Source: Oscillospiraceae bacterium
Lineage (GTDB): Bacteria; Bacillota; Clostridia; Oscillospirales; Ruminococcaceae
DNA length: 49,612 nucleotides
Reading direction: 5' to 3'
Assembly: GCA_009786985.1 (NCBI GenBank)
Contig: WRGW01000109.1
Coordinates: 1-49,612, forward strand
Below, piece after piece: positions 3,274 to 41,114 of this stretch (positions within the stretch are counted from its first letter, which is position 1; each line of letters starts with the position of its first letter). The position numbers and the translations under genes were made by a program. The notes below the pieces were generated by a model. It ran no database searches and had not been told where the DNA came from. It saw nothing but the letters and a program-made list of their open reading frames with translations.

Positions 3274-5607
3274 TCACTTAGTCTTACGTTTTACGTTAAT
3301 CACGCTTTCGATTTTTTCGAGTTTTTTTATAAGTTTGCCCAGCTGTTCCATGCTCAAAATATCGAAAGTAAAGTGTAAAACTGCGTTTCCATTAGGAAGA
3401 ATGCGTGAATTGTTATTGAGAATATTAACCTTGCTTTCCGCAACAAATTCAACTGCATCTTTTAACAACAAATCGCGATTAGTCGCAAGAATTTCGAGGG
3501 TAACTTTATAAGATGTTGTTTTAGATATAGCATCTTCCAACCATGTTGCTTTTACAATTTTTTCTTTGTTTTCTTCGAGTTTGTCTGGGGTTAAGCGTGA
3601 TTTAATGTTCACACAATCAGATATATGAACTGATACACCGTGTCCTTTTGTAATAAATCCGACAATCTCATCATTCGGTAATGGATTACAGCAGTTTGCG
3701 AATTTAACTAGACAATTGTCAAAACCTTCAATTTCGACATTTATTGCTTGTTTTGATTTTTGAATCTTGTCTATATATTTGTCGGTGGCGACATTACCAC
3801 CTGTGTTGTTGGAGGTGGTCGCTCCACCAAGTTCGGTTTTGAGCCATATAGACACATTATTAGTCGAAATTTCTCCGTAACCGATTGCCGCATAAAAATC
3901 ATCAAGGTTGTTGTAGTTATGTTTTTGAGCGAGTTTTAGTAAAGAGTGTTCGAGTTCGGATTGCTCAGAATTGTTGATTACAGTAGCCCCTTCTCGTTTA
4001 AGTATACTTTCTACAAAAGTTTTGCCTGATTTTACGTTATCGTCACGCCGTTCGTTTTTGAGCCAATGGCGAATTTTGCTTTTCGCTAAAGATGTTTTAG
4101 CATAATCCAACCATGAGCGATTTGGTCCTGGTGCAGGATTAGAAACGATGATTTCTATTACGTCACCAGTGTTAAGTTCTTGGCTGAGTGATACTGTTTT
4201 TCCGTGTATTTTAGCCCCAGTCATATTATTACCTATGTTTGTGTGGACAGCGTAAGCAAAGTCAATCACGGTTGAGCCTTTGCGTAAACTTTTATGGTCG
4301 CCTTTAGGGGTAACTACATGGACTTCGTCAGATGTAAAGTCGCGTTTAATCGCTTCGGCGATGTTGTCGACATCTGAAGAAGTGCTTTGCAATTCAATCA
4401 TTTCGCGGATATGGTCAAAGCGTGTGTTTACACCCTCTTTAATTCCAGCTTCGCCGATTTTATATCGCCAGTGAGCCGCAACTCCAAATTGTGCGATTTC
4501 GTGCATTGCACGGGTACGAATCTGAACCTCAAACGGTTGACCCTCGCGCCCTAAAAGAATTGTGTGGATTGATTGGTAGCCGTTATCCTTTTTGTTGGCA
4601 ATATAGTCCTTGAACATCTCGGAGCCTGTAAGTGGGGTGAACATATCATGTAGTATGCCGAGGACGCTATAACAATCACCATTAGTTTCGGTGATTACAC
4701 GAATGGCGTATACATCATAGATTTGTTCAATATTTTTCCGTGTCAGATAATATTTTTGACATAGGCTGTATATGCTTTTTACACGACCTTCCAACAAAGG
4801 TACAGGGTTAATATCAGAAAGTCGGGATTCGATTTTTTTCATAATCGCTTCAATACAATCGAATCGGTTTTGGGTATAGAACTCCAAATCGCTTACAACG
4901 GCGTTATAAGCGTATCTGTCGTAATAAAAAAGTGCGTAGTTCTCAAGCTGATTTTTAAGATAAGTCATACCAACTCTATGAGCGATTGGTGCATGAAATT
5001 CGATTGTTTCAAGTGCGATTCTGATTTGTTTGTCACGCCTAAAAACGCCCAAAGTTTGCATATTATGAAGCCTGTCTGCTAGTTTGATAACAATCACTCG
5101 ATTATCATTAGACATATCAATTAGCATTTTACGGATATTCTCTGAGTTCTCTTCGTCTTTGGTGAGCTGTTTCATAGCTCTATGTCCAGTACCTTCGACA
5201 CCTAAGTTTACTTTGCTGACTTTTGTTGCACCGTCTACTAATTTTGCGACATCTTCACCATATCGGCGTTCTAATTCTTCAAATGTTACGTCACAATCTT
5301 CCACCACATCGTGTAGAAGGGCGGCAATAATCGTATCTGAGTCCATCTTGATTTCGAGAAGAATTTCTGCAACAGAAATAGGGTGAGAAATGTACGGTTC
5401 ACCTGATTTACGCATTTGCCCCTTATGAGAAGTTTGCATAAAATCATACGCATCTTCAATTTTATTGAGGTTGTAGTTAGCTTTAACTTTGCGAACTTTT
5501 CCCATGAATATATGCTTATAGTTGTTATAATCGATTGTCGCTAACTTGTGTTCATGTTCGCGTTCGAGCGTTTCGCGGTCGAGAATATGTGCGTATTCGA
5601 TTTTCAT
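3274..5607 (-). CDS. rel: bifunctional (p)ppGpp synthetase/hydrolase (Rel)
   Basis: Synthesises and hydrolyses the alarmone (p)ppGpp and governs the stringent response; 777 residues, normal for the long RSH family. Domain order is complete: HD hydrolase (HPISVAEIL; LLHDVVED at 98-104; KLADRLHNM at 175-183); synthetase (GRVKSIYSLCQKYY near 274, YDVYAIRVI, YQSIHT at 344-349, EVQIRT at 360-365, GVAAHWRYK); TGS domain (VVTPKGDHKSLRKGSTVIDFAY near 431-451); the CC zinc-finger-like motif FANCCNPLPNDEIVGF; and a C-terminal ACT domain. Both the HD pair and the synthetase Glu are present, so both activities are expected. AAAGGAAG lies about 8 bases before the ATG. A 17-bp-spaced sigma-A promoter at 5831-5859 gives a leader of about 215 nt packed with hairpins, described separately. 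Confidence 0.96.
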   Translation of the reverse strand: MKIEYAHILDRETLEREHEHKLATIDYNNYKHIFMGKVRKVKANYNLNKIEDAYDFMQTSHKGQMRKSGEPYISHPISVAEILLEIKMDSDTIIAALLHDVVEDCDVTFEELERRYGEDVAKLVDGATKVSKVNLGVEGTGHRAMKQLTKDEENSENIRKMLIDMSNDNRVIVIKLADRLHNMQTLGVFRRDKQIRIALETIEFHAPIAHRVGMTYLKNQLENYALFYYDRYAYNAVVSDLEFYTQNRFDCIEAIMKKIESRLSDINPVPLLEGRVKSIYSLCQKYYLTRKNIEQIYDVYAIRVITETNGDCYSVLGILHDMFTPLTGSEMFKDYIANKKDNGYQSIHTILLGREGQPFEVQIRTRAMHEIAQFGVAAHWRYKIGEAGIKEGVNTRFDHIREMIELQSTSSDVDNIAEAIKRDFTSDEVHVVTPKGDHKSLRKGSTVIDFAYAVHTNIGNNMTGAKIHGKTVSLSQELNTGDVIEIIVSNPAPGPNRSWLDYAKTSLAKSKIRHWLKNERRDDNVKSGKTFVESILKREGATVINNSEQSELEHSLLKLAQKHNYNNLDDFYAAIGYGEISTNNVSIWLKTELGGATTSNNTGGNVATDKYIDKIQKSKQAINVEIEGFDNCLVKFANCCNPLPNDEIVGFITKGHGVSVHISDCVNIKSRLTPDKLEENKEKIVKATWLEDAISKTTSYKVTLEILATNRDLLLKDAVEFVAESKVNILNNNSRILPNGNAVLHFTFDILSMEQLGKLIKKLEKIESVINVKRKTK

Positions 5608-5679
5608 GACATTTCTTCCTTTGCATTTGAGTTTTTATCAGCACTATCAGCACAAAGTTAAGTGTATAGCGAGTTAAAA

Positions 5680-5825
5680 ATAAAATGCTCCGCATTTTAT
5701 TCGGCAAGCATTGCTTGCCGCCGTGCCAACGGCACGGGATAATCGCTATGAAATTAAGTCAGGGTCGCCTGAGGCGGACTCCACAGCGAACGCTGCAGAT
5801 TGAAAATGCAAAGCATTTTCAATCT
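5680..5825 (-). repeat. cluster of six short palindromes forming the rel 5' leader
   Basis: Six separate inverted repeats follow one another: 5680-5700 (9-bp arms, loop TCC), 5703-5719 (GGCAAGC-ATT-GCTTGCC), 5722-5736 (CGTGCC-AAC-GGCACG), 5764-5779 (GTCGCC with GGCGGAC), 5784-5795 (CAGCG-AA-CGCTG) and 5797-5825 (13-bp arms, loop AAA). All lie between the rel promoter and start codon, so the mRNA leader would be a string of hairpins. The outermost one sits right at the predicted transcription start. Not recognised as any named riboswitch. Confidence 0.75.
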
Positions 5826-16674: not shown

Positions 16675-16847
16675 GTATGCCTTAGAGGGGGGAATTCACT
16701 TCCCACTATAAGGGTTATTTCGGTGAGGCAAGGTTCTTCAAGCTGTTTGTCGACTATGTGAAGTCGTCACCCCGAAGCTCTTGATGGCGAGTAGCTTGAA
16801 CGCATAAATTACAACACCGCTTCGTGTTAGAGCGGTGCTGTTTTGTT
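16675..16847 (+). ncRNA. structured RNA or leader candidate between rpmF and pcrA
   Basis: A gap of about 195 bp with several compatible helices: TATGC/GCATA closing pair; GGGAA-TTCAC-TTCCC; TCGACT-ATGTGA-AGTCG; TTCAAGCT/AGCTTGAA. They end in the terminator at 16813-16847, directly upstream of the pcrA ribosome-binding site. It could be the 3' end of the rpmF transcript, an independent small RNA, or a terminator-controlled leader of pcrA. I looked for the T-box TGGNACC, lysine, SAM, FMN, M-box and SRP-RNA signatures and found none. Confidence 0.5.
16813..16847 (+). terminator. rho-independent terminator upstream of pcrA
   Basis: CACCGCT (16815-16821), 9-nt loop, AGCGGTG (16831-16837), then CTGTTTTGTTG. 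It sits about 10 bp before the GGAGG of pcrA. Confidence 0.75.
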
Positions 16848-16862
16848 GTCAGAGGAGGTCTA

Positions 16863-19250
16863 ATGAAACATTTTTTTGAACGCTTGAACCCTAAGCAAAA
16901 AGAAGCAGTCTTTCATACAGAAGGTGCACTCTTAATTATTGCAGGGGCTGGTAGCGGCAAAACTTCGGTTCTTTGTTGTCGAATCGCAAATATAATCAAT
17001 GAGGGGCTTGCTCTCCCATGGCAGATTTTAGCGGTGACATTCACTAACAAGGCAGCAGGTGAACTTAGAGAACGCCTGTCATCAATGAAAATAGAAAACG
17101 CTAAGGACATCCACGCTGGAACTTTTCATTCAACCTGTGTAAGGATTCTTAGAAACGGAATTGAGGGGCTTAATACACCAGAAGATTTATTTCAGACGTC
17201 AGGCATAAAAAGCTCGGCACAGCCGACCTTTGTTATGCCCTTGTTTGGCTTACCAATTGCGAGTGAAACTCTCCCAGTCGAGAATTTGCTTAACGATGGT
17301 TCTACTACTGTAGTGAGTGGCGGGTATCGCAAAGGGTTCACTATTTATGATACTGATGATTCGTTAAGATTGATTAAATCATGTATGAAAGACTTAAATA
17401 TTTCCGAAAAAGTGTATGCTCCCAAATCGGTGTTTCATAGTATATCGAGAGCGAAAGATTTTCTTGTTACTCCTAAATTTTTTGAGATTACTAATGAAAA
17501 TGGATTACGTGACTCTCATCTTGAAACGGCACAGAGGGTGTATTCGCTATATCAACAACGCTTAAAATCCGCCAATGCACTTGATTTTAATGACTTGATT
17601 ATGAAAACGGTTGAGCTTTTTGAGAAAAATCCAGACATACTTTCACAGTGGCAAAAAAAATTCAGATATATCATGGTTGATGAGTATCAGGATACTAACT
17701 ATGCACAATATCGTTTGGTATCGCTTCTTGCGGGAAAGAACGGTAATCTTTGTGTTGTGGGGGATGAAGACCAGAGCATCTACCGATTTAGAGGGGCAAC
17801 AATCGAAAACATCCTCTCGTTTGAAGAAGAGTTTAAGGCACACACAATCAAACTTGAGCAGAATTATCGCTCTACCCAGAACATACTTGGTGCTGCTAAT
17901 GGTGTGATTTGCAAGAACACACAACGTAAACCTAAAAAGCTCTACAGTACGATAGATGCTGGCGAGAAAGTCCAGCTACATATCTTGGCGAACGAACATG
18001 AAGAGGCTATGTTTATCTCGCGCGAAATCGAAAAAGGTAAAGGTAATGGCATTTCTTTCGGGAAAAATGCGGTGTTGTATCGAACTAATGCACAATCGAG
18101 AACGGTTGAATTAGGGCTGGCACGGGCATCGATTCCGTACAGAATAATCGGTGGCGTTCGATTTTATGAGCGTAAGGAAATCAAAGATGTAATTGCTTAT
18201 ATGAGCGTTCTTGACAATCCGTTTGATTTTATACGTTTTCGCCGAATAGTAAACGAGCCTAAACGCACAATTGGCGATGTTACGCAAATTGAAATCGAAA
18301 ATGCGTCAAACGAACTTGGGATTAGCCCTTTTGATGTGATGGCGACTGCTGACCAGTTTCCGTCCTTATGTAAAAAAGTTGGTGTTTTAAAAGAATTTGC
18401 TTCGGTATTCGGTGAATTGACTGAAATCTCAAACGATAAAAGCAAGAACCTGCCAGATTTAATTGACTCTGTTGTGAATCTGACGGGGTATAAAGCTATG
18501 CTTCAAAAGCAGGGCGAGGAAGGGGCTGAGCGCCTCCAAAATATCGATGAGCTAAAGTCCGCAGCGCTAAAGTTTGCAGAAGAAAACCCTGAATCGGGTT
18601 TGTCTGACTTTTTGGGTCAAGTAGCCTTAGCGTCTGATATGGACGATTATGAGCAGGGTGAAGATAGAGTTTCTCTGATGACAATTCATTCAGCTAAAGG
18701 GCTTGAGTTTGAACGTGTTTTTCTAATCGGGGCAGAGGAGAATCTGTTTCCGTCATTCAGGAGCGTTGCAAACCCTATGGATTTAGAAGAAGAACGCCGA
18801 TTGATGTATGTTGCAATTACGCGTGCTAAAACAATTTTACACATCATAACTGCAAAAGAACGGTTGTTATTTGGAATGACACAACGTAACGGCATTTCGA
18901 GATTTATAAAAGAAATTCCAGCCGACCACATTCAAATAAATGACCGTACCAGACGAGTTATTGCAACTTCTTCTAATAACACCAGTAGCAGCGATTTGCG
19001 AACACTCGAAAAATCGAGTACCCATTCGTCACACTCAAGACCACGCACAAGAATTGAAAGTACAAGAAGTACGCCCTCACAATTAGGTCTTACATTTACC
19101 GAAGGTGAGTGTGTTAATCACAAAGTTTTCGGTAAAGGAACGGTTTTGAGCGTTTCGGATATGGGTAATGATTCGTTATTAGAAATTGCGTTCGATAAAG
19201 TCGGTACTAAAAAAATCATGGCTAATTTTGCAAAAATCACAAAAGTTTAA
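16863..19250 (+). CDS. pcrA: ATP-dependent DNA helicase PcrA/UvrD
   Basis: SF1A 3'-5' helicase for excision repair, rolling-circle replication and clearing of stalled complexes; 795 residues. Motifs: LIIAGAGSGKTSVL (I, 24-37), AVTFTNKAAGELRERL (Ia), AGTFHSTCVRILR (Ib), VDEYQDTNYAQY (II), VVGDEDQSIYRFRGA (III), LEQNYRST (IV), LMTIHSAKGLEFERVFL (V), EEERRLMYVAITRAK (VI). The C-terminal Tudor-like domain (GECVNHKVFGKGTVLSV...) marks PcrA. Unusual: between IEGL and GFTIYDTDD, residues about 104-156 form an extra segment of about 50 residues that PcrA/UvrD normally lack. Part of it is encoded by a palindromic repeat shared with ispE. All helicase motifs remain intact, so the protein is probably functional. 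ATG at 16863 follows GAGGAGGTCTA. Confidence 0.95.
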   Translation: MKHFFERLNPKQKEAVFHTEGALLIIAGAGSGKTSVLCCRIANIINEGLALPWQILAVTFTNKAAGELRERLSSMKIENAKDIHAGTFHSTCVRILRNGIEGLNTPEDLFQTSGIKSSAQPTFVMPLFGLPIASETLPVENLLNDGSTTVVSGGYRKGFTIYDTDDSLRLIKSCMKDLNISEKVYAPKSVFHSISRAKDFLVTPKFFEITNENGLRDSHLETAQRVYSLYQQRLKSANALDFNDLIMKTVELFEKNPDILSQWQKKFRYIMVDEYQDTNYAQYRLVSLLAGKNGNLCVVGDEDQSIYRFRGATIENILSFEEEFKAHTIKLEQNYRSTQNILGAANGVICKNTQRKPKKLYSTIDAGEKVQLHILANEHEEAMFISREIEKGKGNGISFGKNAVLYRTNAQSRTVELGLARASIPYRIIGGVRFYERKEIKDVIAYMSVLDNPFDFIRFRRIVNEPKRTIGDVTQIEIENASNELGISPFDVMATADQFPSLCKKVGVLKEFASVFGELTEISNDKSKNLPDLIDSVVNLTGYKAMLQKQGEEGAERLQNIDELKSAALKFAEENPESGLSDFLGQVALASDMDDYEQGEDRVSLMTIHSAKGLEFERVFLIGAEENLFPSFRSVANPMDLEEERRLMYVAITRAKTILHIITAKERLLFGMTQRNGISRFIKEIPADHIQINDRTRRVIATSSNNTSSSDLRTLEKSSTHSSHSRPRTRIESTRSTPSQLGLTFTEGECVNHKVFGKGTVLSVSDMGNDSLLEIAFDKVGTKKIMANFAKITKV
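17201..17258. repeat. protein-coding palindromic element, copy 2 (inside pcrA)
   Basis: Near-identical (55 of 58) to 11975-12032. Here it is read on the plus strand as GIKSSAQPTFVMPLFGLPI, in the extra segment of PcrA after motif Ib. It is thus used in the opposite orientation to the ispE copy, and both reading directions are stop-free. Confidence 0.9.
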
Positions 19251-30477: not shown

Positions 30478-31482
30478 TTATATAATCGCTTTTCTGATTT
30501 TGGCCACTTTTTTGGTGAGCCTGTCAAATTGTTCTGGTGTGAGCGATTGTGCACCATCGCAGAGTGCTTCTGCTGGATTGTTGTGAACTTCTATCATAAG
30601 CCCATCAGCACCACAAGCCGCAGCCGCCATTGCCATAGGTTCAACCAAGTTGCGTTTACCAGTAGCGTGAGAAGGGTCAACCACAACTGGCAAATGCGAA
30701 AGTTCTTTTAGAACTGACACCGCCGATAAGTCAAGCGTGTTACGGGTAGCAGTTTCAAAAGTACGGATTCCGCGTTCGCAGAGAATGACGTTTTCATTAC
30801 CCTCAGACATGATGTATTCCGCACTCATCAGTAGCTCTTGCAAAGTGTTCGCAAGACCGCGTTTGAGTAAAATCGCTTTACCACGAACTTTGCCTAGTTC
30901 TTTAAGAAGCTCAAAGTTTTGCATATTACGAGCACCTACTTGAATGACATCAACGTGTTCAAACATAGGTAGATGTAGCCCGTTCATGATTTCAGTGACA
31001 ATTGGCATACCAGTCTTCGCTTTAGCTTCGAGTAACAGCTCAATTCCATCAGCTTTCATGCCCTGGAAGTCATAAGGAGAAGTACGTGGTTTAAACGCAC
31101 CCCCTCTTAGCAAAGCCGCTCCAGATTTCTGAACACTTTCAGCTACCGACAAAATCTGCTCTGATGATTCCACCGAACAAGGCCCTGCAATAATTTGAAA
31201 TTCTCCTCCGCCGATTTTGTGACCACCAATATCTACAACCGTATCATTGGGATGAAATTTGCGGTTTGCACGTTTATAAGGGTCGCTAATTCGTTTGACA
31301 GAATCTACGATTTCAAGCCCCTCTACTAAATCGATATCAACCTTAGTGACATCGCCGATTAGCCCGATAATCGTCTGCTCTTCTCCTTCAGAGATATTGG
31401 TTTTTAACCCTCTCGCTTCAAACCACGTAATTAGGTTTTGGATTTGTGGTTCGGTCGCACCTGGTTTAATCACTGTAATCAT
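30478..31482 (-). CDS. aroF: 3-deoxy-7-phosphoheptulonate synthase (type I-beta)
   Basis: First step of the shikimate pathway, condensing PEP and erythrose-4-phosphate. 334 residues: an N-terminal ferredoxin-like regulatory domain of about 70 residues (MITVIKPGATEPQIQNLITW...) as in Thermotoga-type enzymes, then the KDPG-aldolase-like barrel. Motifs include IIAGPCSVES, RGGAFKPRTSPYDFQG, VTEIMNGLHLP, QVGARNMQNFELL, ILLKRGLANTLQE, RTFETATRNTLD, and VVDPSHATGKR. The extra domain usually mediates feedback inhibition by tyrosine or phenylalanine. GAAAGGG precedes the ATG. It follows rloB by 24 bp, so it would be transcribed through the defence genes. Confidence 0.96.
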   Translation of the reverse strand: MITVIKPGATEPQIQNLITWFEARGLKTNISEGEEQTIIGLIGDVTKVDIDLVEGLEIVDSVKRISDPYKRANRKFHPNDTVVDIGGHKIGGGEFQIIAGPCSVESSEQILSVAESVQKSGAALLRGGAFKPRTSPYDFQGMKADGIELLLEAKAKTGMPIVTEIMNGLHLPMFEHVDVIQVGARNMQNFELLKELGKVRGKAILLKRGLANTLQELLMSAEYIMSEGNENVILCERGIRTFETATRNTLDLSAVSVLKELSHLPVVVDPSHATGKRNLVEPMAMAAAACGADGLMIEVHNNPAEALCDGAQSLTPEQFDRLTKKVAKIRKAII

Positions 31483-31506
31483 TGTTTTGCCCTTTCAAAA
31501 TTTAAT

Positions 31507-32109
31507 TTATGTGGTTGCTTTTCGATATTCGCGTAAGTATTTTGACAACATATAAACCGTCGTACAAGATTGCCAGTCGGATGGGTTATTATTATTTTTT
31601 TCATTCTCCTCGTGGATAATTTTTGCACGATTTTCCGCAGTATCGGTCTTACTTGAGATTTTTTGGTAAACAAATTCTATAAAATCTTTATCCTTTTTGT
31701 ATTCACAATCAAGACAATCTTTTTTACCAAGTTCGGTTTTAAGTTTTTGTTCATTCATTGCTCTTGAAATATTTTTGTAGTGCAATAAAAACCAATATTC
31801 AAACGCTAAGTTTGAATACGCACATTTTATTCCTTGGTCTTCAGCTTTTTCGATTGCTTCATTAAATTTTTTATCATTATCGTAATCAAAAACCGCCCAA
31901 ATTTCTTTGTAATTTAATTTTTCTTTAACGGCTTTTTGAACTACACCCATAGGGTCGCAGTTTGGATGAGTATTCACAGTTTTAACTGATACATTTTTAA
32001 GTTTTTTTGCAAACAAATCGAAATAAATTTTTTCGGTTTGACCACCACAGACAATTAAAATTTGATTTATTTCTTTTGTTGGTTTTTTTGCTCGATTTTT
32101 TCTTAGCAT
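31507..32109 (-). CDS. rloB: RloB-family protein, effector partner of an AbiL-like defence pair
   Basis: A 200-residue RloB-like protein (PF13707 family). QILIVCGGQTEKIYFDLFAK opens the domain with a conserved Glu (residue 26). WAVFDYDNDK (71-80) carries a cluster of Asp residues. SNLAFEYWFLLHYKN is the other family hallmark. The Glu followed by DxDxD resembles a TOPRIM-type metal site, which would fit a nuclease (inference). RloB proteins pair with AAA15 ATPases in RloAB and AbiL abortive-infection modules, exactly as here. AGGAGG overlaps the ATPase stop codon, and the genes are 11 bp apart. The sequence is Lys/Asn-rich and more AT-rich than its aro and recR neighbours, suggesting horizontal acquisition. 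Confidence 0.85.
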   Translation of the reverse strand: MLRKNRAKKPTKEINQILIVCGGQTEKIYFDLFAKKLKNVSVKTVNTHPNCDPMGVVQKAVKEKLNYKEIWAVFDYDNDKKFNEAIEKAEDQGIKCAYSNLAFEYWFLLHYKNISRAMNEQKLKTELGKKDCLDCEYKKDKDFIEFVYQKISSKTDTAENRAKIIHEENEKNNNNPSDWQSCTTVYMLSKYLREYRKATT

Positions 32110-32120
32110 TATTCAACCTC

Positions 32121-33422
32121 CTAATCAAGTAACGATGGTTGCAGAACAGGTTCTTTCAATGGTAGAAATCTTCGTGTTTTGGGGGTAGCACCATACAATC
32201 CAATGAGGTATTGTTCCATAAGTTGATTGTTTTTAGTAGCACCCTTAAACTCATCAAGAGAGTACATACTACTAGCCCCACGTTCATCTTTTTCAACAAA
32301 GTAGATTTGGTCAATGCGAATAGCCTCTTCAAGTAACAGGGCATTGTGTGTATTACAAATCAATTGTGCATTATTAGCATTTTGACTGATTGAGTTGAAC
32401 AATTCTACAACATATCGAACTAAATTAGGGTGCAAATTAGAATCAATTTCATCTAGAAAAATAACATTACCATTTTCGAGGGTGCTTAAAACAGCTCCAG
32501 CCAATGAAAACAATTTTAGCGTTCCTAATGACTCCATGTGAGACTGACATTCAACAACAGCAATTTTTTCTTTGCTTTCGTTATATAAAGCCCTTTGGGT
32601 GGTAAACTCTAATTTTTTGGTAACAGCGGTATTTTCAAAAATATTCTTTCTGGCGATTTTTTTCAGAAGCTTGATGTTTTGTTCATCTTCAATTTCCTTG
32701 AAATCAAAATCCACAATATCAAAATCAGCTTTTTGTATGAATTCTAATACTTTTGATTTTGCGTGTTCATTTTTTTTAATATAATCATAAGTTATATTTA
32801 CAAGCGAATTTGAATTTGTTGCATCGAAAATTTGTAGATTTCCAAACCATTCAAATACATTTCGAGCGAATTTATTGTTACCAGCATTTCCCCAATAAAG
32901 AAAAAGTGTATCAGGGCGTGTGTTTTTTTTGAAAATCTCAACATCTTTCATTTGTTCAGAAAGAGTAATATCTTCAAAATTTGAACTCTTGCGTGAAAAA
33001 AGCACAACTGGTTTTTTCCCTTTGGACTTATATTCCAAATTTTCGCTCACAATTTCACCTTTTTGAAACTCAAAACCATATTTATACATTTTATCATCTT
33101 TTGCAACAAAAATCATTTCAAAACCACGTGGCATATTGATTGATTCTGTGTTGAAGAGAAAAAAGTTATTGTCTTCTAACAAGCGCCCTTGCAAAATCAA
33201 ATCTGACACTATAATTGAACGCATATACAATGCTGATTTAACAAAGTTAGATTTACCACTTCCGTTAGCACCGAAAACAAATGCACTTTTGAGCAAACGC
33301 CCAAAACCATTAGAAGAGAAAGTATTAAACTTTTTCAAAACTTCGCTATTATTAGCCTGCATTGAAAAAGTGGTTTCTTCAAAAAATGACGTATAGTTTT
33401 TTAGTGTAAATTCGATTAACAT
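32121..33422 (-). CDS. AAA15/RloA-type ATPase of an AbiL-like defence pair
   Basis: A 433-residue SMC/ABC-like ATPase of the AAA15 family. MLIEFTLKNYTSFFEETTFS starts the N-terminal strand. Walker A is VFGANGSGKSNF (50-60), the ABC-like signature ESLGTLKLFSLAG (298-309), Walker B VIFLDEIDSNLHP (320-332), and a switch histidine lies in ICNTHNALLLEE (356-366). The middle carries a family-specific insertion with little recognisable homology. It is probably a sensor that licenses RloB on phage infection, by analogy to AbiLi and to the AriA ATPase of PARIS. AAGGG lies about 10 bases before the ATG. It starts 15 bp after recR, and no promoter is visible, so it depends on the dnaX-ybaB-recR transcript. 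Confidence 0.85.
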   Translation of the reverse strand: MLIEFTLKNYTSFFEETTFSMQANNSEVLKKFNTFSSNGFGRLLKSAFVFGANGSGKSNFVKSALYMRSIIVSDLILQGRLLEDNNFFLFNTESINMPRGFEMIFVAKDDKMYKYGFEFQKGEIVSENLEYKSKGKKPVVLFSRKSSNFEDITLSEQMKDVEIFKKNTRPDTLFLYWGNAGNNKFARNVFEWFGNLQIFDATNSNSLVNITYDYIKKNEHAKSKVLEFIQKADFDIVDFDFKEIEDEQNIKLLKKIARKNIFENTAVTKKLEFTTQRALYNESKEKIAVVECQSHMESLGTLKLFSLAGAVLSTLENGNVIFLDEIDSNLHPNLVRYVVELFNSISQNANNAQLICNTHNALLLEEAIRIDQIYFVEKDERGASSMYSLDEFKGATKNNQLMEQYLIGLYGATPKTRRFLPLKEPVLQPSLLD

Positions 33423-33437
33423 TAAGTCACTACCCTT

Positions 33438-34094
33438 CTAAATCTCATTCCTATTCTCTAAAGCCCGTGTAAGCGTAACATCGTCAGCGAATTCTAAAGC
33501 AGCACCTGCTGGAAGTCCATAAGCCAGTCGTGTCACTTTGATTTCGCCAGCACCTACTGTTTTCACAAGTCGACCGATATATGTCGCAGTGGCTTCACCC
33601 TCTACAGTAGGGTTAGTTGCCATAATAATCTCATCTACATTTTCAGTTAGCCGTTCCATTAGCTCGCGAATGCGAAGGTCTTCGGGGTGAGTGCCGTCAA
33701 TAGGCGACAACAATCCGTGCAGAACATGATACACTCCATTAAATCCGCCAGTGCGTTCAAACACAGAAACATCTTTGGGCGATTCGACCACACAAATCAC
33801 TTTATGATTTCGATTATGTTCATCTTGACAAATCACGCACAAACAAACCTGATTTTGAAGATTTTCTGTTTCTAAATCTGATTCCAAATTAGAACTCGTG
33901 AAATTTTGGCACTTAACACAGAATCGAACTGACTCACGTGCCATAAGAACGCCCGCTGCAAATTCTTTCGCAGAATCAATCGGGAGTGTTAAAATATGAT
34001 AAGCCAATCTTTGTGCTGTTTTCATACCGATTCCTGGTAGTTTCGCAAACTGCTCCGCCGCCATAAGTAGCGGAACAGGGGTGTATTCTGCCAT
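33438..34094 (-). CDS. recR: recombination protein RecR
   Basis: RecFOR-pathway mediator for loading RecA at gaps; 218 residues including a Cys4 zinc finger and a TOPRIM domain. LPGIGMKTAQRLAYHIL is the helix-hairpin-helix. CVKCQNF...CVICQDEHNRN holds the four cysteines, with an unusually long spacer between the pairs (FTSSNLESDLETENLQNQVCL). VICVVESPKDVSVFERTGGFNGVYHVLHG starts the TOPRIM. IREL...DEIIMATNPTVEGEATATYI completes it. ATG at 34094 follows GAAAGGAATGGTCATA. The track ORF extends 36 codons upstream into a palindromic repeat and should be trimmed. Usually recR follows dnaX and ybaB, as here. Confidence 0.95.
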   Translation of the reverse strand: MAEYTPVPLLMAAEQFAKLPGIGMKTAQRLAYHILTLPIDSAKEFAAGVLMARESVRFCVKCQNFTSSNLESDLETENLQNQVCLCVICQDEHNRNHKVICVVESPKDVSVFERTGGFNGVYHVLHGLLSPIDGTHPEDLRIRELMERLTENVDEIIMATNPTVEGEATATYIGRLVKTVGAGEIKVTRLAYGLPAGAALEFADDVTLTRALENRNEI

Positions 34095-34102
34095 ATTATG
34101 AC

Positions 34103-34185
34103 CATTCCTTTCTGCCACCAACGTGTTATAAAACATACCGTCTACCGCAGAAGTGGCAAAGCCACTTCTTGACGGTTTTGTTTTA
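34103..34185. repeat. palindromic repeat carrying the recR ribosome-binding site
   Basis: TTTCTGCCACCAACGTGTTATAAA on the plus strand matches TTTCCGCCACCAACGCGGCATAAA upstream of tetR at about 760 bp. Both continue to GGCAAAGCCAC. Here the interior is a strong hairpin, AGAAGTGGC-AAA-GCCACTTCT, flanked by ACCGTC/GACGGT. In both places the repeat ends in the AAAGGA Shine-Dalgarno of the next gene. Confidence 0.7.
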
Positions 34186-34202
34186 ACCTTAAACCTCTGC
34201 AA

Positions 34203-39573: not shown

Positions 39574-39879
39574 TCATCCGCTCCAATATTTTCTATCAAG
39601 GCTTCTATAGCTAATCGCCATTGACACGTGTTTTTTGGTGATGACTTCATTTTTGTCTAAATCAGCTGCTGTTCGTGCTACTTTGAGGATTCGGTCATAT
39701 GCACGTGCAGACATTCCGAGTTTATCAAACACGTTCTTGAGCAGACTTTTTGCTACATCATCCATAACGCAAATTTCAGCCATCATCGATGACGGGAGTT
39801 CAGAGTTAGATTTGATTTTAGTGCCTTTATATCGCTCATTCTGAATAGCACGTGCGAGTTCGACTTTTTCGCGCATCAT
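39574..39879 (-). CDS. ComM/YifB C-terminal fragment (frameshifted from 39876-41114)
   Basis: 101 residues equal to the C-terminal domain of YifB/ComM Mg-chelatase-like ATPases: MMREKVELARAIQNERYKG, LGMSARAYDRILKVARTAADLD and the terminal AISYRSLDRKYW. The frame is open further upstream without a start: ...YKEISGDGDSSKPKGETSAMMREKV, which is the expected continuation of the N-terminal ORF. The two frames are joined by a single-base loss near 39936. An ATGA overlap would in principle allow coupled translation of this piece. Most likely this is one gene broken by a real mutation or a sequencing error. Confidence 0.85.
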   Translation of the reverse strand: MMREKVELARAIQNERYKGTKIKSNSELPSSMMAEICVMDDVAKSLLKNVFDKLGMSARAYDRILKVARTAADLDKNEVITKKHVSMAISYRSLDRKYWSG

Positions 39880-41114
39880 AGCTGAAGTTTCGCCCTTTGG
39901 CTTTGATGAATCACCATCGCCTGAAATTTCCTTATAAGTACTGGATTAACCTCGATTTGAATGTCGATTCTATCCAAAACAGGCTGGCTGATTTTTCCTA
40001 AGTATTTGCTCACAGCAAGAGGGGAGCAGGTGCATTTCTTGGCGGGGTGTCCAAAATTTCCGCAAGGGCAGGGGTTCATAGCGGCGACTAACATGAAGTT
40101 ACATGGATATGTCGCCGAGCCGCTCGCTCTTGAAATAACGATTTCACGATTTTCTACAGGTTGTCGAAGCGTTTCGAGGGTTCGACGGTCGAACTCTGGA
40201 AGCTCGTCTAAAAACAAAACTCCATTATGTGCTAATGAAATTTCTCCCGGTTTAGGAACGCTCCCTCCACCACAAAGCCCTGAGGAAGATGCTGTGTGAC
40301 TTACTGGTCGAAATGGGCGTTCTGTTATTAAAGGTGCGTTTTTGTCAAGCGTTCCAGCCACTGAGTATACCCCGGTTGTTTCGATACTTTCCTCAAAAGT
40401 CATAGCTGGTAGAATCGAAGGTAGTCGTTTTGCTAACATTGATTTTCCAGTTCCGGGTGGACCTAACATAATCACATTGTGGAATCCAGCCGCCGCAATT
40501 GTGAGAGCTTGCTTGACGTTTTCTTGTCCTTTAACGTCGGCGAAATCAGCAAAATCGCGTTCGAGGTTTGGGTTCGGTTGATACGTTTGATGAACTGGTA
40601 GAGTTTGTCCGTCTTTCAAATGCCAGTATAAATCAGCAATGTGTTTTACTCCGTAGACTTTTAGTCCCTTAACCACACTCGCTTCATCGGCGTTTTCGTA
40701 GGGTAGAAATAGGTGTTCAATGCCGTTTTTGTGCGCTTCAATTGCCATAGGCAAAGCTCCAAGTACGGGGTTCACTCCGCCTCCTAAGCTGACCTCGCCG
40801 AAAAAAGCAGATTTGCTTAAATCAATCGCAATTTCTTCCTGCGTTGCGAGGATTGCTGTTAAAATAGCTAAATCATACGAAGACCCCGCTTTCTTAATAG
40901 AAGCAGGTGTAAGGCTGATTATAAGTGACTTGTTTGCTAACTTGATTTGTGTGTTAGATAACGCAGACAAAATTCTTTGCTTGCTTTCTTGAACAGAAGC
41001 GTCAGCTAATCCTACTATATAGAACTCTGACATTCCTTTTTGGGCATTGATTTCGGTGACAACTGGAAAAGCATTCATCCCGAATAGCCCTACTGAATTG
41101 ATTTGTATAAACAT
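39876..41114 (-). CDS. comM: YifB/ComM-family Mg-chelatase-like AAA+ protein, N-terminal part (frameshifted)
   Basis: ComM/YifB proteins are hexameric AAA+ helicases that help integrate transforming DNA by branch migration. This 412-residue ORF has the Lon-protease-like N-terminal domain (VGLADASVQESKQRILSAL, AGSSYDLAILTAILA), then Walker A LGPPGTGKSMLAKRLP, Walker B NGVLFLDELPEFDRRTLETL, the cysteine cluster NPCPCGNFGHPAKKCTC and QPVLDRIDIQIEVNPVL. After that the frame runs into non-homologous IRKFQAMVIHQSQRAKLQL and stops. The true continuation is in the -1 frame (see 39574-39879). With one extra base the whole gene would be about 510 residues, the family size. No good Shine-Dalgarno is obvious (GGAACTTATATG). 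Confidence 0.88.
   Translation of the reverse strand: MFIQINSVGLFGMNAFPVVTEINAQKGMSEFYIVGLADASVQESKQRILSALSNTQIKLANKSLIISLTPASIKKAGSSYDLAILTAILATQEEIAIDLSKSAFFGEVSLGGGVNPVLGALPMAIEAHKNGIEHLFLPYENADEASVVKGLKVYGVKHIADLYWHLKDGQTLPVHQTYQPNPNLERDFADFADVKGQENVKQALTIAAAGFHNVIMLGPPGTGKSMLAKRLPSILPAMTFEESIETTGVYSVAGTLDKNAPLITERPFRPVSHTASSSGLCGGGSVPKPGEISLAHNGVLFLDELPEFDRRTLETLRQPVENREIVISRASGSATYPCNFMLVAAMNPCPCGNFGHPAKKCTCSPLAVSKYLGKISQPVLDRIDIQIEVNPVLIRKFQAMVIHQSQRAKLQL

Follow-up and report, generated by a model that had tools for sequence, protein, structure and literature searches.

An AbiL-type rloA-rloB pair with an altered Toprim motif inserted between recR and aroF in a bacterial housekeeping operon

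The window, that is, the whole stretch of 49,612 nucleotides of DNA that was analysed, carries on its minus strand a complete defence-type gene pair inside a core operon, separated from its neighbours by spacers of 15 and 24 bp. The gene order is recR, rloA, rloB and aroF, the successive gaps measuring 15, 11 and 24 bp, recR ending at 33438 and aroF starting at 31482 in window coordinates, and the position, strand and spacing given in the original prediction proved to be exact. The locus is composed of the following features:

33438..34202, minus strand: recR, the flank upstream of the insertion (TIGR00615, 2.8e-64)
33423..33437, minus strand: recR-rloA junction, 15 bp, AAGGGTAGTGACTTA, absent from the empty sites
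32121..33422, minus strand: rloA/abiLi, an ABC-type (SMC/Rad50-like) ATPase of 433 aa (Pfam AAA_21, PADLOC AbiLi, structure model)
31507..32109, minus strand: rloB/abiLii, an RloB (Toprim-type) protein of 200 aa (Pfam RloB, PADLOC AbiLii, structure model)
31483..31506, minus strand: rloB-aroF junction, 24 bp, with the aroF ribosome site
30478..31482, minus strand: aroF (DAHP synthase), the flank downstream of the insertion (TIGR01361, 1.4e-118)

The true start of recR is probably located downstream of the annotated first TTG (34202 end). As had been foreseen, plausible ribosome sites can be recognised by reading, with TAGGAGG preceding rloB and GAAAGGG preceding aroF, and the description of the junctions as free of promoters and terminators is probably right: the matches returned there by a promoter scan (9/12, in an AT-rich stretch) are not above chance, no terminator is predicted at the junctions of the pair and no RNA family was found at the junctions. 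When the whole stretch was scanned, the strongest minus-strand promoter match, and the sole strong one, was positioned upstream of guaB (38308-38280, 11/12). We infer from this layout that rloA-rloB would share the transcript of the operon and be expressed at a steady housekeeping level.

Searches for defence genes usually focus on islands. In this regard, a scan of nine other proteins of the window, the ORFs beyond these being judged by reading, revealed no other defence or mobile genes, and the only cross-matches among the nine were a housekeeping UvrD/PcrA helicase and an ABC transporter. The UvrD helicase (16824-19250) has a PcrA/UvrD tudor domain and lies far from rloA-rloB. A ComM-like Mg-chelatase protein encoded at 39876-41114 seems short (412 aa, with its C-terminal domain unmatched), possibly as a result of a frameshift.

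The pair is, as originally noted, AT-richer and richer in Lys and Asn than its surroundings, with a GC content of 0.32 (rloA) and 0.30 (rloB) versus 0.39-0.44 in neighbouring genes, and a Lys+Asn content of 18% (RloA) and 24% (RloB) versus 9-13% in the neighbours. The use of AT-richness as proof of recent transfer was dropped because the three relatives checked are also AT-rich compared with their own hosts, which indicates that this property belongs in part to the family and does not in itself point to recent transfer.

Comparison with related genomes demonstrates that rloA-rloB is an insertion between recR and aroF. Within the genus, recR is found in 66 of 71 genomes and aroF in 31, and the two genes are adjacent in only four of the 71, namely the window, G003, G064 and G066. 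The latter three, which are the nearest species with this adjacency, lack the pair between recR and aroF, providing the empty site that had been proposed as a check and showing that the pair is not a shared possession of all relatives at this site. The distance from the recR stop to the aroF start is 11 bp in G003, 91 bp in G064 and 116 bp in G066, as established from joined flanks and raw junctions rather than from a global alignment of the full insert. The order guaB-dnaX-recR-aroF-tyrA-aroB-aroA-aroC in G064 (names read from translations) is that of the window, and since the same operon here contains approximately 1.9 kb between the stop codon of recR and the ribosome site of aroF, this DNA is to be regarded as inserted. 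The ancestral operon is best explained as guaB-dnaX-ybaB-recR-aroF-tyrA-aroB-aroA-aroC. Within the rloB-aroF junction, the part GGGCAAAACA resembles GGACAAAAACA in the empty site of G003; searches at the ends of the insert found no terminal repeats, direct repeats or target duplications, and no mobile-element ends stand out. Given that the genome is a draft of 112 contigs, the assembly might be suspected of having joined unrelated DNA at the recR-aroF junction, yet such an artefact is extremely improbable because both junctions are clean, lie well within a contig of 49.6 kb and place the pair exactly between the stop of recR and the ribosome site of aroF, while the flanks keep the gene order seen in G064. 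Elsewhere in the genus the gene 3' of recR varies and is often guaB, indicating that the recR flank is open to change, and defence-like genes may land there repeatedly.

With respect to the encoded proteins, profile searches matched RloA to Pfam AAA_21 (4.4e-31) and PADLOC AbiLi (1.6e-78), the latter scoring far higher than the PADLOC AriA profile (9e-27), and RloB to Pfam PF13707 (5.1e-36, 125 bits versus a cut-off of 31.5) and PADLOC AbiLii (8.9e-23). The proposed AbiL/RloAB composition has thus been confirmed by the suggested search against defence profiles, and in the window the AbiLi/RloA ATPase gene is directly followed, after 11 bp, by the AbiLii/RloB gene. The ATPase motifs of RloA are intact, including S298-G300-T301 and H359, which are also kept, and the two main ones are located as follows:

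33249..33272, minus strand: Walker A, GANGSGKS, residues 51-58 (G51, A52, N53, G56 and K57 invariant in 49 RloAs)
32430..32453, minus strand: Walker B and following motif, D324 E325 ... H331 (all three invariant in 49 RloAs)

The model of RloA (pLDDT 90.8) has a fold that matches the heads of Rad50, SMC, PtuA, OLD and RecF, and a sequence search of solved structures with this protein returned weak PtuA matches only; one structure prediction was run after three alignment rows from plasmid records had been removed.

Across genome, viral, phage and plasmid loci, an RloB ORF directly adjoins 177 of 193 RloA-like ORFs, which indicates that RloA-RloB is a real unit. Such pairs are found on plasmids, on viral contigs and in a Lactococcus prophage where the annotation reads 'abortive phage resistance', and related pairs are often carried by plasmids or prophages or lie beside other defence candidates. 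Their distribution around the window is patchy: an RloA-like match was found in 9 of 60 relatives, with a best full-length identity of 34% within the genus, and RloB is sporadic in the order to which the window belongs (17 of 295 genomes). A crude survey covered 136 pairs for which the two neighbours could be seen; both were on the same strand in 57, and in three the same-strand neighbours both lay within 50 bp, suggesting that tight two-sided embedding as observed in the window is uncommon; one of these three adjoins an HsdR-like gene, another is placed between metabolic genes near a transposase and the third rests on doubtful ORFs.

The closest known counterpart is AbiL (AbiLi-AbiLii) of Lactococcus lactis, or RloA-RloB, which shares with the window two adjacent genes in the order ATPase, RloB. 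The RloB labelled 'abortive phage resistance' in Lactococcus phage proPhi7 (L139) aligns with that of the window, although it possesses a canonical TEGITE motif where the window has CGGQTE, and Lactococcus AbiL is located on a plasmid or prophage whereas the window pair resides in a housekeeping operon. PARIS (AriA-AriB) likewise combines an ABC ATPase with a separate Toprim effector, but membership of this system was rejected, the effector being RloB (PF13707)/AbiLii with no AriB match in Pfam or PADLOC. OLD nucleases and GajA of Gabija follow the same logic of an ATPase with a Toprim nuclease, while the window has two separate genes and no adjacent UvrD-type helicase partner; assignment to Gabija (fused GajA with an adjacent GajB helicase) was rejected on account of the separate genes and of the neighbours recR and aroF, as was assignment to OLD classes 1-3, in which ATPase and Toprim share one chain as opposed to the two chains of the window. 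Finally, the Rlo genes linked to type I restriction belong to the same protein families, and the L182 pair lies directly upstream of an HsdR-like gene, whereas no restriction genes are present at the window site.

The most distinctive property of the pair concerns the Toprim site of RloB, which was evaluated in an alignment of the window protein with 79 other RloBs (n=80):

32032..32049, minus strand: altered Toprim motif C-G-G-Q-T-E, residues 21-26 (G22 codon 32044-32046; E26 kept)
31879..31887, minus strand: DxD motif D75-Y-D77, kept (D75 in 80/80, D77 in 77/80)
31798..31800, minus strand: E104 of FEYWFLLH, kept (80/80; probable counterpart of OLD E508)

Position 22 is Glu in 73 of the 80 RloBs and Gly in the window, so that the first Glu of a complete Toprim active site (EG Glu, DxD, helical Glu) is missing. 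The loop following this Glu varies by one residue among RloBs, and every gap placement leaves the window position non-acidic. E26, on the other hand, is kept in 79 of the 80, and W106 and H110 in all of them, the window included. Judged by position, G22 would correspond to the invariant Toprim glutamate, E400 of Burkholderia pseudomallei OLD, and E26, D75 and D77 would correspond to OLD E404, D455 and D457, with E104 probably equivalent to E508 (PMC6755086). The model of RloB (pLDDT 93) displays strands and helices that alternate as in Toprim, residue 22 following immediately on the first strand and D75 terminating the third, and its best match among solved structures, modest as it is (E 1.6e-3, TM 0.37), is the Toprim region of an OLD nuclease; sequence searches of solved structures with RloB, single or as a profile, found no relative.

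Loss of conserved RloB residues had been named in the original prediction as an argument against the assignment. One such residue has indeed been lost, at G22, while E26, D75, D77 and E104 are kept, and because the loss is common to a clade and the remaining active site is intact, it alters the expected chemistry and not the family membership. AbiL membership of the window RloB by descent stands, whereas canonical catalysis would not follow from it. The clade in question was delineated with a tree of RloA, and is consequently independent of the Glu trait of RloB: the window groups with G291, G187, Herbivorax sp. ANBcel31 and G492 (bootstrap/SH-aLRT 98/95), with RloA identities of about 35-47%. 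The Toprim Glu is replaced in all four members with a readable RloB, the motifs being CGGQTE in the window (Gly), CAGETD in G187 (L108; Ala), CAGETE in G492 (L133; Ala) and CCGETE in Herbivorax (L145; Cys, from the first 70 residues, after which the contig ends), which gives a clade motif C-[GAC]-G-[QE]-T-[ED]; the RloB of G291 (L338) is off the contig and outside this count. The next nearest RloAs outside the clade have partners with a canonical CEG..TE. On sequence grounds, the clade is a rare Glu-less RloA-RloB subfamily that is newly recognised here. When the search was extended around G492 and G187, the only additions were G291 and a decayed copy in G374, a phylum search produced no further members of the Glu-less clade, and two scans of viral contigs yielded many AbiL pairs and no further member. 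In the decayed copy (L336, G374:C13, ~4739-5784 of the locus), RloA is without its N-terminal part and RloB without the Toprim motif region.

Outside the window clade, the Glu is also lost in scattered RloBs (Asn in L178, L218 and L312, Gln in L253 and Gly in L162 of Crocosphaera). These isolated losses, the visible decay of the related G374 copy and the replacement at G22 of a residue conserved in 73/80 RloBs might suggest that the pair is a passive passenger, recently landed and being lost, with RloB already damaged at its active site. We consider this improbable, because both frames of the window are complete and equipped with ribosome sites and nearly all other invariant residues, and recent damage fits poorly with the fact that four distant clade members share the loss. 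Since losses elsewhere are isolated and all four readable members of the clade are without Glu, the loss is most simply regarded as ancestral and kept.

It has also to be considered that the pair was domesticated and is retained in the operon for a RecR-linked repair or cell-cycle role instead of phage defence. Its position inside a replication/repair and metabolic operon is compatible with such a role, as are the resemblance of the RloA fold to Rad50/SMC/RecF heads, the fact that RecR is itself a Toprim protein, and the finding that Cran1, an archaeal OLD protein, has its function in the cell cycle and not in defence (PMC12796447). However, the pair is absent from the three nearest relatives, the site shows no vertical conservation, and the other clade members occupy unrelated sites, one beside a PDC-M62A/B defence candidate and one decayed (G374), so that domestication seems a poor fit. 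The sites of the Glu-less clade indeed differ from that of the window: the Herbivorax pair is beside PDC-M62A/B, that of G187 lies between fab genes and a nitroreductase and that of G492 between a protease gene and a murJ-like gene (the names in both cases being read from sequence). In Herbivorax (L145:1595-5546), PDC-M62A/B, a candidate defence pair of an ATPase and a putative nuclease, is positioned directly upstream of RloA.

Most likely, then, the pair was horizontally acquired, is of AbiL type and of the Glu-less subfamily, and is expressed with the housekeeping operon, its defence role and catalysis being putative. Taken as a whole, the account that we favour with some confidence is that of an acquired, co-transcribed, Glu-less AbiL-type anti-phage pair in which RloB is an altered metal-dependent nuclease. 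By analogy with AbiL, PARIS and related systems, the ABC-type ATPase RloA would bind RloB and hold it inactive, sense infection and then release RloB as the effector. A network study has shown that AAA ATPase partners neutralised Toprim toxins, and placed RloB with OLD-type Toprim domains (PMC10440598). The effector would act on nucleic acid through a modified metal site, with metal A held by the DxD alone and metal B by E26 and E104, and its activity would more likely be that of a weak nickase or slow nuclease than processive.

Whether a Toprim site can do without its Glu is a controversial matter, as the OLD, AriB and YbjD data disagree, and the Glu-less clade represents a natural test of this requirement in ATPase-Toprim immunity. 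For example, the single mutant E400A of B. pseudomallei OLD still cuts whereas the triple metal-A mutant does not (PMC6755086), from which it follows that a Glu-less site need not be dead. On the other hand, the PARIS Toprim mutant AriB E26A is inactive (PMC12409363), so losing the Glu could abolish catalysis, and the anti-phage effects of E. coli YbjD (OldB) require its ATPase half but not its Toprim half (PMC13261556). The latter results, together with the old and retained loss of Glu in all four clade members with a readable RloB, which span about 35-47% RloA identity, lend some weight to a different reading, in which the RloB of the clade would be a Toprim protein devoid of catalysis and serving in defence as a scaffold, sensor or nucleic-acid binder while RloA or another partner does the work. 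We regard it as unlikely, though deserving serious attention: D75, D77, E26, E104, W106 and H110 are invariant or nearly so and would not be needed by a purely structural Toprim, and the invariance of the remaining acidic residues favours an altered metal-dependent nuclease. Rather more speculatively, the pair may represent an AbiL subfamily of its own, in which RloB manages without the universal Toprim Glu, by other chemistry or without cutting, and in this lineage constitutive housekeeping expression would make the pair a lasting immune component of the repair operon.

A separate group of RloBs (L109-L112, L318-L324) carries T-D-T where the E-G motif would stand, with Asp for Glu and Thr for Gly, and thereby deviates in a further way from the canonical Toprim. 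guaB directly follows recR in many species of the genus, while in the small clade of the window it is upstream of dnaX, a local rearrangement. At the 3' end of recR, G022 carries a convergent Abi_2 gene (L028:442-1329, 1.3e-48) and G023 a convergent gene for a YhcG/DUF1016 PDDEXK nuclease (L045:2376-3416, 4e-61).
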